Below are positions 22,809-40,960 of a stretch of 42,009 nucleotides of DNA, piece by piece. Source of the DNA: Chloroflexota bacterium. Its GTDB lineage: Bacteria; Chloroflexota; Dormibacteria; Dormibacterales; Dormibacteraceae. How positions within the stretch are numbered: position 1 is the stretch's first letter; the number at the start of each line of letters is the position of its first letter. The position numbers were made by a program, and so were the translations under genes. Location: NCBI GenBank assembly GCA_005881825.1, contig VBEO01000053.1:1-42009 (forward strand), given 5' to 3'. The notes beneath the pieces were generated by a model. It saw nothing but the letters and a program-made list of their open reading frames with translations, did no database searches and was not told where the DNA came from.

Positions 22809-23861
22809 GTGAACGTCCCCAATCTGCTGACACTCAGCCGCCTGCTCGCCATCCCGGTGCTGGCGGCGCTCCTGTTCGGGCGTTTCGCAGCCCACGATCA
22901 GCTGGCGGCCGCGGTCTTCCTGGTCGCCTCCCTCACCGATACCCTCGACGGCACCCTGGCTCGCCGCCGGGGCCAGGTCACGGAGCTCGGCAAGTTCCTC
23001 GACCCCCTGGCCGACAAGCTCTTCATCCTGTCGGTCCTGATCTTCCTGGTCGCCCAGCAGGAGCTGCCGGCCTGGGTGGTGGTGGTGATCTTCGGCCGCG
23101 AGATGCTGATCACGATCCTGCGTTCGGTCAGCGCGGCCCAGGGCCACGTGATCGCGGCGACCCCGTTCGGCAAGACCAAGACCGCGACCCAGGTCGGCGC
23201 CGTGCTGCTCCTGATCCTGGCCCGCCCCTATCCAGAGCTGGGACTCCTGGCGCTGATTGGGATCGGCGTGGCGGTCGTGTTCACGGTATGGAGCGGCCTC
23301 GATTACCTCTACCGCTTCCGTCATGTCTTCGGGGGTGCGCCCGCCGACGCGGTGGAACTGCTGGCCGTCGACCTCCAGCGTCAGGGCCTCACGCTGGCCG
23401 TGGCCGAGTCCTGCACCGGCGGCGGGCTGGCCGCGCGCCTCACCGAGCGGCCCGGGTCCTCGCGCTGGTTCCTGGGCGGCGTGATCGCGTACTCCAACTC
23501 CGCCAAGCAGGACCTGCTGGGCGTCGACAACCGGCTGCTGGAAAGACACGGCGCGGTTTCCGCCGAGGTGGCTGCGGCCATGGCCCGCGGCGTGCGCCGG
23601 CGTCTGGGCTCCGACCTCGGCGTGGCCATCACCGGCATCGCCGGTCCCGACGCCGACGGCTCGGACAAGCCGGTCGGCCTCACCTTCGTGTCGGTAGCCT
23701 CAGCCGGTGAGGACCACTGCCGGCGCTTCGACTTCAGTAGCGACCGGCAGGCCAACCGGGAGCAGGCGGTCGAGGCCGCGCTGCGGCTGCTCCTTGACGT
23801 TCGAACAGGTGTTCGATACACTTCCGAAGCCCTCGACGACGCCGTCCAGGAGCCTTGTTAA
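22809..23861 (+). CDS. pgsA/cinA: Fusion: phosphatidylglycerophosphate synthase (PgsA) + CinA C-terminal amidohydrolase (PncC)
   Basis: A 350-aa two-domain protein. Residues 1-180 are a CDP-alcohol phosphatidyltransferase with the motif DTLDGTLARRRGQVTELGKFLDPLADK (DGxxAR...G...D...D) and several membrane helices; it makes phosphatidylglycerol phosphate. From about residue 185 follows a CinA C-terminal domain (AVAESCTGGGLAARLTERPGSSRWFLGGVIAYSN..., AITGIAGPDADG), a nicotinamide-mononucleotide deamidase. The two genes are usually separate neighbours before recA; here no stop separates them. The joint (RHVF-GGAPADAVELL) loses no obvious domain, but an assembly-made fusion cannot be excluded given nearby deletions. 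The recA promoter lies inside its last codons. Confidence 0.85.
   Translation: MNVPNLLTLSRLLAIPVLAALLFGRFAAHDQLAAAVFLVASLTDTLDGTLARRRGQVTELGKFLDPLADKLFILSVLIFLVAQQELPAWVVVVIFGREMLITILRSVSAAQGHVIAATPFGKTKTATQVGAVLLLILARPYPELGLLALIGIGVAVVFTVWSGLDYLYRFRHVFGGAPADAVELLAVDLQRQGLTLAVAESCTGGGLAARLTERPGSSRWFLGGVIAYSNSAKQDLLGVDNRLLERHGAVSAEVAAAMARGVRRRLGSDLGVAITGIAGPDADGSDKPVGLTFVSVASAGEDHCRRFDFSSDRQANREQAVEAALRLLLDVRTGVRYTSEALDDAVQEPC
23794..23822 (+). promoter_or_regulatory. recA promoter with LexA (SOS) box
   Basis: TTGACG (23794-23799), a 17-bp spacer and TACACT (23817-23822) form a sigma-70-type promoter. The perfect palindromic SOS box CGAACAGGTGTTCG (23802-23815) fills the spacer, so bound LexA would block RNA polymerase. 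It lies within the 3' end of pgsA/cinA, about 104 nt before the recA ATG. The same 14-mer recurs at 39717-39730. Confidence 0.88.
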
Positions 23862-23925: not shown

Positions 23926-24984
23926 ATGGAAAAAGAAAAAGCGCTCAGCACCGCCGTCTCGCAGATCCGCCGCAGCTATGGGGAGGGGGCGATCATGAAG
24001 CTCGGCGAGGCGGCCGCCCAGCGCGAGGTCAGCTCGATCCCCACCGGCGCCTTGCCGCTCGACCTGGCGCTGGGCGTTGGCGGCATCCCCAAAGGCCGCG
24101 TGATCGAGATCTACGGCCCCGAGTCGGCCGGCAAGACCACCGTCGCACTCCACGTGGTGGCCGAGGCCCAGAAGCTGGGCGGGGTGGCGGCGTTCGTCGA
24201 CGCCGAGCACGCGCTCGACCCTATCTACGCGTCCCGGATCGGCGTCAACATCGACGAGCTGCTGATCTCGCAGCCCGACACCGGCGAGCAGGCGCTCGAG
24301 ATCGTCGAGGTGCTGGTGCGCTCCAACGCCGTCGACGTGATCGTCATCGACTCGGTGGCGGCGCTGGTCCCCAAGGCCGAGATCGAGGGCGAGATGGGTG
24401 ACTCCCACGTCGGCCTCCAGGCCCGCCTGATGTCGCAGGCCCTGCGCAAGCTCACGGCCGCCATCTCCAAGTCCAACTGCGCGGTCATCTTCCTCAACCA
24501 GCTGCGCGAGAAGGTCGGGATCATGTTCGGCAACCCCGAGGTCCAGCCGGGCGGCCGCGCGCTCAAGTTCTATGCCTCGGTCCGTCTCGACATTCGGAAG
24601 GTCGAGACCATCAAGAGCGGGCTCGACTCGATCGGTGCTCGAGCCAAGGTCAAGGTGGTCAAGAACAAGGTGGCGCCGCCGTTCCGCACCGCCGAGTTCG
24701 ACATCCTCTTCAACGAGGGCATCTCCCGCGAGGGCGCGCTCATCGACGCGGCCGTCGAGTTCGGGATCATCGAGAAGAGCGGCACCTGGATGTCGTTCGG
24801 CGAGATGCGGCTCGGGCAGGGTCGCGAGAACGTGCGCAACTTCCTTCGCGAGAACCCGACCCTGGCCGGCGACATCGAAGCTCGCGTGCGCGAGAAGGCC
24901 GCCGGCCAGGCGGCGCCGCTCAAGACCTCCACCTCGGTGCGCACCGCGGCGCCGGTAGGCGCCGATGAAGAAGAGGAGGTCTAG
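23926..24984 (+). CDS. recA: Recombinase RecA
   Basis: Strand-exchange ATPase and LexA co-protease. The 352-aa protein shows Walker A GPESAGKT (residues 64-71), VDAEHALDP, the [15 protein letters not shown] Walker B and the L1/L2 loops ([36 protein letters not shown]). It ends in an acidic tail (GADEEEEV). The ATG at 23926 has GGAGG 12-16 nt upstream. It is driven by the SOS-box promoter at 23794-23822 and followed by overlapping recX. Complete. Confidence 0.97.
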
Positions 24985-25474
24985 GCTCCGAGACTCCTCC
25001 CCGCGCGAAGCGTGGGGAGGTCCGGCGCGGAGCGCCGGGGAGGGGGTCGCTGGGTGCTACGAGGCCGCGGTGAGGCTCCTGGCATCCCGCGCCCACTCGG
25101 CGCGCGAGCTGCGCCTCAAGCTGCTGCGGCGCGGGCATCCCTCTGACGAGATAAACGCCGCCCTCGAGCGCCTGCGCGAGGGCGGCTACCTGGACGACGC
25201 GGCCTATGCTCGCGCCCTGATCGGTCGAAGGTCAGGCGGCCGCGGGGCGCGCGCCATCGCGTCCGAGCTGGCGGCCAAAGGCGTCGACCGGGAGGTGGCG
25301 CGCACCGCACTGGCCGAGCTGAGCACCGAAGACGAGCTGCAGGCGGCCCAGGCGCTGGCGGAACGCCTCTGCCGGGCCGGCCCGCTCGACACCGAACGCA
25401 TCGGAGCCCGGCTGCTGAGGCGCGGCTTCTCGGTCGAGGTCGCGCGTGCGGCGCTGCGAGGTCTCCGGCTTTAG
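24965..25474 (+). CDS. recX: Regulatory protein RecX with an N-terminal palindrome-derived extension
   Basis: RecX caps RecA filaments and limits recombination. The conserved part begins [26 protein letters not shown] and contains [14 protein letters not shown] and [15 protein letters not shown], three RecX three-helix repeats, 169 aa in all. The ATG at 24965 lies inside recA (20-nt overlap), and the first ~30 residues are translated from two GC-rich hairpins (24996-25038). No canonical start exists between them and the conserved region; the GTG at 25070 would cut into the first repeat. So a palindromic element appears to have been inserted and is read through in frame. Confidence 0.85.
24996..25038. 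repeat. Tandem GC hairpins inside the 5' end of recX
   Basis: First hairpin: CCTCCCCGCGC-GAA-GCGTGGGGAGG at 24996-25020 (one G-T pair). Second: CCGGCGC-GGA-GCGCCGG at 25022-25038. The pair resembles mobile palindromic units seen in high-GC soil bacteria and sits across the recA/recX junction inside coding sequence. Confidence 0.7.
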
Positions 25475-36708: not shown

Positions 36709-37523
36709 TCGCCGACTTGGCGGCGGTGATCGATCGCGCCTACGAGGACGCGGCGGCCCTGGAGGACGCCGGCGTGCGCGAGGCCGTGGAGCGGACGATC
36801 GCCCTGCTCGACCGCGGCGAGGTGCGCAGCGCCGAGAAGCGCCCCGAGGGCTGGGTGGTCAACGATTGGGTGAAGAAGGCGATCCTCCTCTACTTCCGGC
36901 TGCGCGGGATGGAGACCATCGAGCTCGGACCCTTCGAGTACCGCGACAAGATCCCCCTCAAGCACGACCTGGAAGCGGCCAAAGTTCGGGTGGTGCCACC
37001 GGCGGTGGCGCGCTATGGATCGTTCCTCTCCGAAGGCGTGATCCAGATGCCGTCCTACGTCAACATCGGGGCCTGGGTGGGGCCGGGCACCATGGTCGAC
37101 ACCTGGGCCACCGTGGGATCCTGTGCCCAGATCGGCGCCCGCGTGCACCTGGCGGGAGGCGTCGGCATCGGCGGCGTGCTGGAGCCGGTGAACGCGCGGC
37201 CGGTCATCGTCGAGGACGACGCCTTCATCGGCTCGCGGGCCATCGTGACCGAGGGCGTGGTGGTGGGCGCGGGCGCCATCCTGGGCGCCAACGTGGTTCT
37301 GACCGCCTCCACTCCGGTGGTCGACGTGACCGGCAGCGAACCGGTGGAGCACCGGGGTGCGATCCCACCCAACGCCGTGGTGGTGCCCGGCACCCGCGTC
37401 AAGAAATTCCCGGCGGGCGAGTTCGGGGTGGCGACCGGCCTGATCATCGGCTGGCGCAGCGCGCGCCAGGAATCGCGGGTCTCCCTGAACGACGCGCTGC
37501 GCGAGTTCGGCGTGTCGGGCTAG
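36705..37523 (+). CDS. dapD: Tetrahydrodipicolinate N-succinyltransferase DapD, CTG start proposed
   Basis: Succinylates tetrahydrodipicolinate in DAP synthesis. The 272-aa protein has the helical N-terminal domain (AAVIDRAYEDAAALED, RPEGWVVNDWVKKAILLYFRL) and a left-handed beta-helix of hexapeptide repeats (VGPGTMVDTWATVGSCAQIG, VHLAGGVGIGGVLEP). CTG at 36705 overlaps the upstream TGA (CTGA) with GGAG 8 nt before it. TTG 36717 and GTG 36726 are alternatives, though they trim the N-terminus. Its TAG stop interlocks with the convergent lexA stop at CTAG. Confidence 0.93.
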   Translation: MIADLAAVIDRAYEDAAALEDAGVREAVERTIALLDRGEVRSAEKRPEGWVVNDWVKKAILLYFRLRGMETIELGPFEYRDKIPLKHDLEAAKVRVVPPAVARYGSFLSEGVIQMPSYVNIGAWVGPGTMVDTWATVGSCAQIGARVHLAGGVGIGGVLEPVNARPVIVEDDAFIGSRAIVTEGVVVGAGAILGANVVLTASTPVVDVTGSEPVEHRGAIPPNAVVVPGTRVKKFPAGEFGVATGLIIGWRSARQESRVSLNDALREFGVSG

Positions 37524-38134
37524 TTGAGGAACCTCATGACGCCTTTGACCAAGCCCACGACCTGGGCGTCCGGCGCCACTATCGGCTGGTAGTCCTCGTT
37601 CTCCGGCAGCAGCCGGATCTGGCCATTGCGCCTGTCCAGCCGCTTGCAGGTGGCCTCGCCCTCGACCATGGCCACGATGATCTGGCCGTTGTCGGCGCTG
37701 GGCTGCGGGCGCACCAGGACCAGGTCGCCGTCGAGGATGCCGGCGTTGACCATGGAGTCGCCGCGCACCTTGAGCAGGAACCAGCCCTCCTGGGCCAGGG
37801 ATTCGGAGATCAGGATGTGGTCTTCGATGTTCTGCTCGGCCAGGATCGGGGTGCCGGCCGCCACGTTGCCGACGAGCGGCAGCCGGACGGCTCCGCGCGC
37901 CGTCTCCTCTTCACGCGTGTCTTTGACCAGCTGGACGGTGCGCGACTTGCTGGGGTCGCGGTGGATGAGACCGCGCCGCTCCAGCTGGTTGAGATGGTTG
38001 TGCACGGTGGAGCTGGAGGACAGCCCGACCGCTTCTCCGATCTCACGGACGCTGGGCGGGTAGTTGCGGGTGCGGCTGACGTGCCGGATGTACTCGAGGA
38101 TCCGGGATTGCCGGTCGGACAGTTCTTCGTTCAA
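37520..38134 (-). CDS. lexA: SOS repressor LexA
   Basis: Represses DNA-damage genes until RecA filaments trigger self-cleavage. From the TTG at 38134 (AGGT-type ribosome site in CACGAGGTCGCAA) it has 204 aa. A winged helix (SVREIGEAVGLSSSSTVHNHLNQLE) is followed by the S24 peptidase domain with cleavage site A93-G94 in NVAAGTP, nucleophile S127 in RGDSMVNAG and K164 in GEATCKRL. The longer frame from 38185 would start within the promoter and is rejected. It is convergent with dapD (stops overlap by 4 nt) and divergent from a LysM gene. Confidence 0.95.
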   Translation of the reverse strand: MNEELSDRQSRILEYIRHVSRTRNYPPSVREIGEAVGLSSSSTVHNHLNQLERRGLIHRDPSKSRTVQLVKDTREEETARGAVRLPLVGNVAAGTPILAEQNIEDHILISESLAQEGWFLLKVRGDSMVNAGILDGDLVLVRPQPSADNGQIIVAMVEGEATCKRLDRRNGQIRLLPENEDYQPIVAPDAQVVGLVKGVMRFLN

Positions 38135-38176
38135 TTGCGACCTCGTGGAAAGTGCTGAGCTGATGAGGCGAGCCCA

Positions 38177-38205
38177 TCCTAGCACCGAACAAGTGATCGC
38201 GCAAA
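38177..38205 (-). promoter_or_regulatory. lexA promoter with LexA box
   Basis: On the minus strand TTGCGC, a 17-bp spacer and TAGGAT form the promoter. The spacer contains CGATCACTTGTTCG (plus-strand 38186-38199), one base from the CGAAC-N4-GTTCG box. The layout is the same as at recA, so autorepression is expected. Confidence 0.75.
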
Positions 38206-38243
38206 CCTTTGTTCGTGGTATGCTGCCTTCGAACAGATGTACG
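38202..38243 (+). promoter_or_regulatory. LysM-gene promoter with two LexA-like boxes
   Basis: An extended -10 TGGTATGCT (core 38219-38224) faces right. It is flanked by CAAACCTTTGTTCG (38202-38215) and CGAACAGATGTACG (38230-38243), each one mismatch from the palindromic box. The second covers the predicted transcription start and the LysM start codon. A transcript would be almost leaderless. Confidence 0.65.
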
Positions 38244-38500
38244 TTGCTCTGCGACGAGCCTGGCTTCTGGTGGTGGTCCTGCTGTTCCTGTCGTTCGCCG
38301 GCGCCAGGGCGGCCTGGGGCGCCACGCCCACGGCCTACTCAACGGTGACCGTGCGCTCGGGCGACACGGTGTGGTCGATCGCCGCCGCGCGCTATCCGGG
38401 CGCCGACACCAGGGAGAAGGTGGGGGAGATCCTGGCCGCCAACGACCTTCACGATGCGCTGCTCAGGCCCGGGCAGCACCTGCGGGTGCCCAGCAGCTAG
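38237..38500 (+). CDS. LysM-domain envelope protein, YneA-like, divergent from lexA
   Basis: An 87-aa protein: N-terminal signal/anchor (residues ~1-29, LRRAWLLVVVLLFLSFAGARAAWGA), then one LysM domain (VTVRSGDTVWSIAAARYPG...VGEILAANDLHDALLRPGQHLRVP) that binds peptidoglycan. A short signal-anchored LysM gene divergent from lexA with SOS boxes between them matches B. subtilis YneA, an SOS-induced division inhibitor; actinobacterial lexA regions have analogues. Function here is inferred from architecture and position, not from sequence identity. The ATG sits in a LexA-like box with no Shine-Dalgarno. Confidence 0.8.
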   Translation: MYVALRRAWLLVVVLLFLSFAGARAAWGATPTAYSTVTVRSGDTVWSIAAARYPGADTREKVGEILAANDLHDALLRPGQHLRVPSS

Positions 38501-38520
38501 CCGCTCGCTACCCTGGCCGG

Positions 38521-39195
38521 GTGCCGCTGCAGCTGGTCACCCGGACGGGCTGCCATCTATGCGAGCAAGCAGAGGCGCTCCTGCGGGCGCGGGATGCCGA
38601 ATTCGACGCCCTCGACGTCGATTCCGATGCCGAGCTCTCGCGCCTGTATGACTTTCGGGTCCCGGTTCTGCTGCGAGCCGGCCGGGTGCTCGTTGAGGGC
38701 AAGATCGACGGCCCCGCGCTGGACCGGGCCCTGCCTGCCGTCCAAGCAGCGGGACCTGAAGCGGCGCGCGAGGTGCACCGGCTGACACAGCTGGCCTTTG
38801 CGGGGTACGGCTGGCTGACGCCGCCCTCGGGCGCGCTCTCCGAGACCGAGGACGATGTGCGCCGGGACCTGCGGGAATCGGGCGGGGCCCTGGCGCGCCT
38901 GGACGGCGCACCCGTCGGCGCACTGCGTATGCGGACCGAACCCAAGGCGCTGTGGGTGCGCCGGGTGGCGGTCGATCCTGCCCAACAAGGCCTGGAGGTG
39001 GGCCGGGCGCTGATGCGCTGGGCCGAACGGCTGGCTTCGGCGCGCGGCCTGCCTGAGGTCCGGCTGGGAGTTCGCGCGCAGCTGCCGGGCAACCGCGCCT
39101 TCTACGAAAGGCTCGGCTATCGCGTGCTGCGCGCCCACCCGCGGCCCGGCAGTGATGAGGTGCACTGGCTGGAGATGGTGACATCGACTCGATAG
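38521..39195 (+). CDS. Fusion: glutaredoxin-like domain + GNAT acetyltransferase
   Basis: A 224-aa protein. Residues 1-75 are a thioredoxin-fold glutaredoxin-like (DUF836) domain with a CxxC site (C11/C14 in TGCHLCEQ), the cis-proline strand FRVPVLL and GKIDGPAL. From about residue 80 it is a GNAT N-acetyltransferase: the GALRM strand, then LWVRRVAVDPAQQGLEVGRALMRWAE (acetyl-CoA loop, slightly altered from QxxGxG/A) and GNRAFYERLGYR. The redox and acetyl-transfer partners are unknown. The GTG at 38521 lies 20 nt after the LysM stop. The joint near 38750-38770 lacks an obvious linker, so a deletion-made fusion is possible. Confidence 0.78.
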   Translation: MPLQLVTRTGCHLCEQAEALLRARDAEFDALDVDSDAELSRLYDFRVPVLLRAGRVLVEGKIDGPALDRALPAVQAAGPEAAREVHRLTQLAFAGYGWLTPPSGALSETEDDVRRDLRESGGALARLDGAPVGALRMRTEPKALWVRRVAVDPAQQGLEVGRALMRWAERLASARGLPEVRLGVRAQLPGNRAFYERLGYRVLRAHPRPGSDEVHWLEMVTSTR

Positions 39196-39322: not shown

Positions 39323-39697
39323 TCAGGCCGCCAGCAGCTCGGCCGGGGCCTCCTCCAGGCCGCGCAGGAACATCAGCAGCGGCAGCGCCGAGTCCTGGAA
39401 GCGTTCCTGCAGCCAGCGCCGGTCTGCGGCCGGCCGCGCCAGCTCCGCCAGCACCGACTCCAGCAAGCGCAGCGTGCGCTCCACGTGGCGGTCCAGCACC
39501 GCCGCACCCGGAGCGCCGCCGGCCCCGGTCAGGTCGGCGCGCCAGGCGCCGCGCACGTCTTGGCTGAGTCCCAGCAGCCGGGCCCGGGCCGACCGGGCCA
39601 GCTCGCCGTCGGCGGGCGCCGCCGCCAGGCGCTCCACGTAGTCGGTGTGGACCCGGATCAGCCGTCGGAGCCGCATCTGCGTGGCCAGGGTACGCAT
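39323..39697 (-). CDS. Unrecognised 124-aa helical protein under a perfect SOS box
   Basis: I do not recognise this protein. From the ATG at 39697 it reads MRTLATQMRLRRLIRVHTDY and is Arg/Leu/Ala-rich, almost certainly all-helical, with no cysteines, no signal peptide and no membrane helix; a late segment DSALPLLMFLRGLEE is the most hydrophobic. A longer reading from 39739 would place the LexA box inside the gene, so the inner ATG is preferred. The upstream palindrome is identical to the recA box, which makes it a likely DNA-damage-inducible gene. It is downstream of the methyltransferase on the same strand but has its own promoter. Confidence 0.7.
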   Translation of the reverse strand: MRTLATQMRLRRLIRVHTDYVERLAAAPADGELARSARARLLGLSQDVRGAWRADLTGAGGAPGAAVLDRHVERTLRLLESVLAELARPAADRRWLQERFQDSALPLLMFLRGLEEAPAELLAA

Positions 39698-39703
39698 GTT
39701 CGC

Positions 39704-39739
39704 ATCGACATCATAGCGAACAGGTGTTCGAAAGCGCAA
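39704..39739 (-). promoter_or_regulatory. SOS-box promoter of the unknown gene
   Basis: On the minus strand, TTGCGC and TATGAT are separated by 18 bp holding CGAACACCTGTTCG (plus-strand CGAACAGGTGTTCG, 39717-39730). The box is identical to that of recA and in the same position relative to the promoter elements. The predicted transcript starts about 6-8 nt before the ATG at 39697. Confidence 0.82.
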
Positions 39740-39740
39740 G

Positions 39741-40367
39741 TCAAGGTGCCTTGCCCTCGATCAGGTTGAAGAAACCCAGGGCCCAGCGGTGGATCCAGAC
39801 CACCTCCACCCCGGCCGCGCGCACGATCTCGAGCGTGCGGCGGTTGAAGTGGTCGGCGTCCAGGCGCACGGTCAGGGGATTGATCAGGTCCTGCAGCGCC
39901 GCCAGCGGCCAGAGATGCGAGCGCACGTGCTCGAAGAAGACCAGCCTGGCCCCCGGCCGCGCCACCCGCAGGGCTTCGCGCACTGCGCGCAGGGGATCGG
40001 GCACCGTGCACAGCACCAGGCTGAAATTCACCGAGTCGAAGACGGCATCGGCGAAGGGCAGCGCCTGGGCGTCGTTCTCCACCAGCTCGACGACCAAACC
40101 GGCCTCGCTGGCCCGCCGCCGGCACAGCCCCAGCATCTCCCGCGAGAGATCCACCCCCACCAGGCGCAGCTCAGAACCGGCCGGGTAGTAGGGGAGCGAG
40201 AGCCCCGAACCGATGCCCACCTCAAGCACGCGCCCCTGCACGCTCTCCCCCACCTTGCGGCGCGCGTCGCGCGTCAAGCGATCCAGAAAGCCGATGCCGC
40301 GGTCGTAGCGCTCGGCGTTGCGGTTGTAGTTCTTGCGGATGCGGCGGAGTTCGCGCTCCGGGGTCAC
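39741..40367 (-). CDS. Class I SAM-dependent methyltransferase
   Basis: A 208-aa protein with the Rossmann-fold SAM-binding motif VLEVGIGSGLSLPYY, the acidic motif GVDLSREML, NDAQALPFADAVFD and SLVLCTVPDP. It resembles small UbiE/phospholipid-type methyltransferases of the Methyltransf_11 group; the substrate is unknown. The GTG at 40367 overlaps the stop of the TetR gene (GTGA), giving coupled translation; the start at 40391 would lie inside tetR. Its stop lies next to the SOS promoter of the following gene. Confidence 0.85.
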   Translation of the reverse strand: MTPERELRRIRKNYNRNAERYDRGIGFLDRLTRDARRKVGESVQGRVLEVGIGSGLSLPYYPAGSELRLVGVDLSREMLGLCRRRASEAGLVVELVENDAQALPFADAVFDSVNFSLVLCTVPDPLRAVREALRVARPGARLVFFEHVRSHLWPLAALQDLINPLTVRLDADHFNRRTLEIVRAAGVEVVWIHRWALGFFNLIEGKAP

Positions 40368-40960
40368 GTCTCCGGCGCGAAGATCGCGCACAAGCCCCGG
40401 ATCAAGGCCTCCAGGTCGACGTCGGGGTCGACCAGGAAGTGGGAGGTGGCCTCGTACACGGCACCCACCACGGCCCGGCCGAAGACTTCGGGATCGATGT
40501 CGCGATAGAAGGGGTCGGCCGCGCCGTGCGCCCGCACCTCAGCCTCCACGATGTGCGCGAAGCGGCCCAGCACCCGGTGCCGAGCTTCCTCCACGGCCAG
40601 GTTGACGCCCACCGACTCCACCAGCAGCAGGCGCGCCAGCTGGGCCCGGGCCATGCAGTAGCGCACGAAGTGCGCAATGCCCCGGCGCAGCCGGGCCCGG
40701 TGGTCGGCGCCCTCGGCGCTGAACTCGAAGACCTCGGCGATCAGGCCGCCGCCCTGCTCCTCCAGCAGGTCGCGGACGCAGTCCTCCTTGGAGGTCCAGA
40801 ACTCGTAGAAGGCCGACTTCGAGGTCCGGGCCGCGGCCACGATGTCGTCGACCGAGGTCTCGTTGAAGCCGTCACGCGCGAAGAGCTCCATGGCGGCCTC
40901 GACCAGGCGCTGCTTGCGGGCGCCCCGCCGCTCTTCCCGATTCCCCGCCACCGCTGCCAA
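40364..40960 (-). CDS. TetR-family transcriptional regulator
   Basis: A 198-aa regulator with an N-terminal TetR helix-turn-helix: RLVEAAMELFARDGFNETSVDDIVAAARTSKSAFYEFWTSKEDC. The helical ligand-binding half (GIAHFVRYCMARAQLARLLL) is of the kind common in lipid/fatty-acid regulators. The TTG at 40960 has AGGGG about 9 nt upstream, overlapping the acyl-CoA dehydrogenase stop. Coupled to the methyltransferase and downstream of the dehydrogenase, it may control this fatty-acid-linked operon; no operator was identified. Confidence 0.88.
   Translation of the reverse strand: MAAVAGNREERRGARKQRLVEAAMELFARDGFNETSVDDIVAAARTSKSAFYEFWTSKEDCVRDLLEEQGGGLIAEVFEFSAEGADHRARLRRGIAHFVRYCMARAQLARLLLVESVGVNLAVEEARHRVLGRFAHIVEAEVRAHGAADPFYRDIDPEVFGRAVVGAVYEATSHFLVDPDVDLEALIRGLCAIFAPET

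Follow-up and report, generated by a model that had tools for sequence, protein, structure and literature searches.

The gene designated here as sos4H appears to be a lineage-specific core gene of the LexA (SOS) regulon in one family of the Dormibacterota, the phylum of soil bacteria to which its host belongs, and LexA control of it is, on sequence grounds, near certain. Its product is predicted to fold as a four-helix bundle, and on the best reading of its role, to which we would give an even chance, it is a soluble SOS effector under tight repression that probably has a short life and works by binding another protein, perhaps as a checkpoint. The window in which it was found, meaning the whole 42,009 nt stretch of DNA analysed, has its relatives among the Candidatus Dormibacterota, the records of which are titled Dormibacteraeota, Dormiibacterota or Chloroflexi bacterium.

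The coding sequence occupies positions 39323-39697 on the minus strand, with an ATG at 39697 and a stop codon at 39323-39325, and orthologues align from the same methionine. In the initial annotation the gene had been given as an open reading frame at 39323-39739, which begins with a TTG upstream of the LexA box; the product length of 124 aa stands, while the true start is the ATG, as in the orthologues. Because dN/dS is 0.04-0.31 in close pairs and substitutions fall largely at third codon positions, sos4H is, by its pattern of change, a real protein under purifying selection.

The gene has conserved homologues, as a candidate SOS effector of the kind initially proposed should. A first search of 60 related genomes found full-length orthologues throughout one Dormibacterota family, with 36-47% identity to the window protein, and profile matches are present in 36 of the 42 genomes of this family; a single sos4H sequence searched against genome contigs gave no match, and it was the profile search of contigs that recovered the gene. 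Six family genomes have no match: in three of these (G017, G022 and G035) the lexA contigs stop near the locus, two (G014 and G451) have no lexA match either, and the last (G012) is only 59% complete, from which it follows that sos4H is probably universal in its family. Among 68 other genomes of the class there was only one marginal profile match (G042, E = 0.004), and a wider sample of the phylum yielded two weak matches (G221 and G228), with none outside the family being confident. One of these two was inspected and rejected as a homologue, being a 518 aa open reading frame that resembles trigger factor, and hence a chance similarity. A phage or plasmid origin was likewise rejected, as there were no relatives in phage, plasmid or viral collections. 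One unusual arrangement was seen at locus L043 of genome G015 (minus strand, around position 1797), where TetR and sos4H run together as a single 311 aa open frame; this in-frame fusion removes the sos4H promoter, LexA box and N-terminus, and either a real deletion or an assembly error could account for it.

The primary LexA box, CGAACACCTGTTCG on the sos4H strand, lies at 39717-39730. Its 14 bases, CGAACAGGTGTTCG, occur exactly at two sites, the other being the box of recA at 23802-23815 (recA ORF at 23926-24984), and a shuffled window is expected to hold 0.04 matches to the general pattern CGAACNNNNGTTCG. The initial observation that the same box sits within the -35/-10 spacer of both genes was borne out: at sos4H it fills most of the 18 nt separating the -35 element TTGCGC (39734-39739, minus strand) from the -10 element TATGAT (39710-39715, minus strand), the ATG following 12 nt further on, and at recA it lies between TTGACG and TACACT, with a spacer that is also 18 nt. 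The identity of the two boxes is exact in the window but is not conserved, and was discarded as meaningful in itself because their centres differ in two relatives. Conservation of the box in front of orthologues, on which the initial proposal of LexA control had been made to depend, proved high: in 27 of the 29 orthologues with a readable promoter, the ATG is preceded at a distance of 28-34 nt by a CGAACNNNNGTTCG box without mismatches. The remaining two have one mismatch (L035) or have lost the box (L045, genus g12). Ten palindromic positions are near invariant among the orthologues and the four centre bases vary; a TTG is also kept immediately before the box, as is a TAnnnT directly after it, and DNA further upstream shows little conservation. 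Since the box is retained by orthologues whose proteins are so diverged from that of the window, selection evidently acts on the operator. As the -10 element ends around 12 nt before the ATG, the predicted transcription start lies 3-6 nt before that codon. In genus g12, boxes at both sos4H and the lexA region are decayed or absent (L045 and L132 in G021; L128/L127 in G011), which suggests loss or change of LexA control in that genus.

The locus surrounding sos4H has a gene order conserved in the family: an acyl-CoA dehydrogenase, a TetR-type regulator and sos4H, convergent with a glutaredoxin gene and a LysM gene, the latter divergent from lexA. In the window, lexA (37520-38185, minus strand; Pfam LexA_DNA_bind and Peptidase_S24, with TIGR00498 above cut-off) is 1.1 kb from sos4H and has an imperfect LexA-like box with two mismatches at its start (38186-38199). 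The adjacent LysM protein (38237-38500, plus strand), identified through Pfam LysM, is presumed to be a division suppressor of the same SOS block; as its match to the NCBIfam YneA model (E = 8.6e-12) scores 44.9 bits, below the cut-off of 60, it is best described as YneA-like rather than as a certified YneA. Between it and sos4H, at 38500-39195 on the plus strand, is a glutaredoxin-like gene joined to a GNAT acetyltransferase domain, of which the glutaredoxin part is kept at this place across relatives; at L017 it is represented by a short stand-alone glutaredoxin-like ORF. Upstream of sos4H is the conserved TetR-type regulator (40364-40960, minus strand), and the methyltransferase gene lying between the two (39741-40391, minus strand) is present in some relatives only. 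No diverged copy of sos4H was found near lexA or TetR in other Dormibacterota families, in which perfect boxes near lexA sit around lexA or LysM genes and TetR is mostly absent.

A candidate second LexA operator, CGAACATGCGTACC, overlaps the sos4H start codon (39689-39702, minus strand), 28 nt from the first. Most orthologues read CGAAC-ATG-CGT-ACG at this point, a sequence that departs from the LexA palindrome at one or two positions and is 27-29 nt away from the first box. Arg-2 is written as CGT in 23 of 25 orthologues, although only 25 of the 410 other Arg codons in these genes are CGT, and the nucleotides at the start therefore appear to be constrained beyond the amino acid alone, with the proviso that the sequences share descent, such that neither operator nor codon counts are independent events. 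The excess of CGT could instead stem from a translation-start preference of nearly leaderless mRNAs. An operator is nevertheless the better reading, because the start-codon pattern recurs at a second gene: the altered half-site at sos4H (GTACG for GTTCG) reappears at the LysM gene, whose ATG is overlapped by CGAACNNATGTACG in 17 of the 18 members of the family examined, with another LexA box 23-28 nt away. In the window this LexA-like operator takes the form CGAACAGATGTACG, with two mismatches (38230-38243). Separately, in family f3 the lexA/LysM intergenic region contains three LexA-like boxes spaced 28-29 nt apart, and in family f4 the lexA loci read carry imperfect boxes only (loci L093-L105).

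The distribution of such paired sites was followed through the regulon of the host's own genome (3.09 Mb in 158 contigs, 92% complete), which contains 15 perfect LexA boxes, against none for a reversed control pattern. Besides sos4H, the boxed genes include recA, uvrB, a DEAD-box helicase, an ImuA-like RecA-fold protein, RmuC, dCMP deaminase and four DUF222 genes, partly with HNH (L004/L005, L007, L012 and L015); the 13E12 repeats of mycobacteria belong to DUF222. Several of these genes recur with boxes in genomes G006 and G010, both of which possess sos4H, and together the set is recognisable from its boxes as a coherent SOS regulon. A recX-like ORF, assigned by position and sequence, follows recA at 24965-25474. 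The DUF222 boxes are at gene starts, and three of the genes have twin boxes 29-31 nt apart. In G006 (L140) and G010 (L143), genes resembling DNA cytosine-methyltransferases were seen just downstream of perfect LexA boxes. Across the own genome and two relatives, twin sites are found at sos4H, LysM/lexA and three DUF222 genes, and are absent from the recA, uvrB, helicase, ImuA-like and RmuC/deaminase boxes, the background rate of twin sites being 3.3%. That sos4H shares this design with the YneA-like gene speaks for an effector under tight repression; because it is also present at DUF222 genes of obscure role, twin operators would seem to mark tight repression rather than division control.

The initial impression that the product belongs to no recognised family was upheld by HMM, sequence and structure searches. 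Searches of Pfam, NCBIfam, PHROGs, PADLOC and PDB sequences revealed no relative, giving only scattered weak matches in one or two members. The helical character attributed to it was likewise supported, as AlphaFold2, given the window protein and 24 relatives, predicts a confident four-helix bundle (pLDDT 91.6, pTM 0.84), and the model of a distant orthologue has the same bundle with a longer fifth, C-terminal helix. Foldseek comparison of two models with the PDB, and of one with viral structures, returned no match at E <= 0.001, and the matches obtained are generic bundles of talin-type, FAT, chemoreceptor and de novo kinds. Function consequently does not follow from the fold, the four-helix bundle being generic and without a significant structural neighbour. 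No transmembrane helix is apparent, judging from the charged, amphipathic character of the helices and the packing of all four in the predicted bundle. The invariant polar and aromatic residues are Thr6, Gln7, Arg12 and Arg15 at the start of helix 1, Trp52 at the end of helix 2, and Arg112 and Pro118 at the end of helix 4; going by the order of the helices, rather than by measured coordinates, these would cluster with both termini at one pole. No His or Cys is conserved among the aligned members, several of which lack His altogether, and this argues against metal or nuclease chemistry. The final residue is Ala in all 28 aligned members despite differing tail lengths, and also in the divergent G011 copy. 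The window protein ends LLAA, and tmRNA tags in the family end LAA, YAA or FAA; most orthologues end QRSA, which is not a known ClpX tag. A conserved C-terminal degradation tail is plausible on this pattern.

These features can be combined into a proposed mechanism. In undamaged cells, LexA bound to the perfect promoter operator, and probably to a weaker one over the start codon, would hold sos4H silent; RecA-triggered cleavage of LexA would then release the gene, whose transcript would be nearly leaderless. The encoded protein would be a soluble, non-enzymatic bundle that binds another protein through the conserved pole formed by its N- and C-terminal parts, and would be quickly removed by way of an exposed C-terminal tail always ending in Ala. 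Acting alongside the YneA-like membrane protein encoded next to lexA, it would most likely delay a cell-cycle step, whether of replication or of division. The operator, promoter, conservation, gene order, selection and predicted fold behind this scheme come from the sequence itself, whereas LexA binding, induction, the second operator and degradation are inferred. The checkpoint role and its target are the most speculative parts of this scheme, the favoured target being a guess by analogy with the division-suppressor-like gene that has the same operator design. The initial annotation had thought of a damage-checkpoint, division-inhibition or toxin-like gene, and a role in this range may be inferred. 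More ambitiously, sos4H might represent a new class of soluble four-helix-bundle checkpoint protein beside the YneA-like membrane inhibitor. Its mRNA would be almost leaderless, and LexA operators in the promoter spacer and across the start codon would let a single repressor block RNA polymerase at two places in the lineage's most tightly kept SOS genes; we put this forward tentatively, as a somewhat doubtful proposition.

The main rival to a checkpoint-type effector is a LexA-induced repair accessory, whose basic helix 1 would bind DNA or the RecA/SSB filament and aid repair or translesion synthesis, with no checkpoint being involved. Five arginines are conserved in helix 1 (Arg9, Arg11, Arg12, Arg15 and Arg23), whose net charge is +4 to +6 in most members, the rest of the protein being mostly acidic, and such a helix would also fit nucleic-acid binding; many of the other boxed genes in the own genome are, moreover, repair genes. 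However, the overall charge is near neutral, there is no homology to DNA-binding families, and recA, uvrB and the ImuA-like and helicase genes have single operators, unlike sos4H, leaving this explanation a serious but unlikely one. In most genomes the gene lies around 1-2 kb from lexA, and in the window and two relatives its distance to recA is around 15 kb; this placing, along with the small, single-domain product, might point instead to a feedback modulator that shapes or ends the response, whether anti-RecA in the manner of DinI or RecX or a LexA co-regulator. This is improbable, given that recA is already followed by a recX gene and that sos4H matches known modulators in neither sequence nor fold. 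Tight twin-operator repression would equally suit a damage-induced gene for a toxin or for programmed death, and a HEPN toxin appears at rank 26 of the Foldseek results with a non-significant E of 0.94; yet no partner gene is present, the absence of an invariant His precludes the HEPN R-x4-H motif, and the gene is vertically kept at a fixed position and absent from phage and plasmid records, making a toxin very improbable. A chance palindrome, or one serving some other regulator, with sos4H having nothing to do with SOS, is scarcely worth entertaining: some perfect boxes in these genomes do appear inside coding sequence, but this one is kept in nearly all readable promoters of substantially diverged orthologues, and its motif is also present at lexA and recA.

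The reading of sos4H as a tightly repressed effector makes it a credible candidate for an undescribed part of the bacterial DNA-damage response. To our knowledge, SOS effectors arise separately in each bacterial lineage and are small and unrelated, hence they are usually missed by annotation. Nothing on the SOS response of Dormibacterota was found among open-licence papers; within the same literature, a small LexA-controlled effector is a known kind of gene, but no description was found of this protein family, of the fold in such a role, or of the start-codon operator design. The analysis provides a defined, conserved and unannotated effector candidate together with a predicted regulon for the Dormibacterota, and the division between twin-operator genes (sos4H, YneA-like and DUF222) and single-operator repair genes amounts to a testable rule for recognising tightly repressed SOS effectors.

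Several known systems resemble sos4H in part. YneA and ChiZ, division suppressors with a LysM domain under LexA control, are comparable in belonging to an SOS block adjoining lexA under strict LexA boxing, the neighbour at 38237-38500 being itself YneA-like. YneA blocks septal wall synthesis by means of a transmembrane helix and a LysM domain (PMC13396833). By contrast, sos4H has neither and is predicted to be a soluble bundle, with none of its 28 members matching LysM. It also lacks a Pfam DinB match and the conserved His metal site or triad of DinB/YfiT. The DinB/YfiT proteins are damage-inducible four-helix bundles of a size similar to sos4H. HEPN toxins are likewise small helical bundles with weak Foldseek similarity to it, but sos4H is without their motif, has no antitoxin partner and is not mobile. 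A classical type II toxin-antitoxin module is not supported, in view of the fixed synteny, the vertical distribution as a core gene, the lack of a conserved small partner and the absence of members from phage, plasmid and viral collections; nor is identification as RecX, as there is no Pfam match and a separate recX-like ORF exists. With ClpXP substrates bearing C-degrons, the resemblance of the invariant terminal Ala and the LLAA of the window protein is suggestive only. Of the SOS division inhibitors known from other lineages, SidA and SosA are membrane peptides, and SulA has a fold different from the sos4H bundle, Pfam and NCBIfam scans giving no match to its sequence family. No sequence match links sos4H to any of the three, but like SulA, SidA and SosA it is small, lineage-specific and LexA-controlled, such proteins having no homology between lineages.
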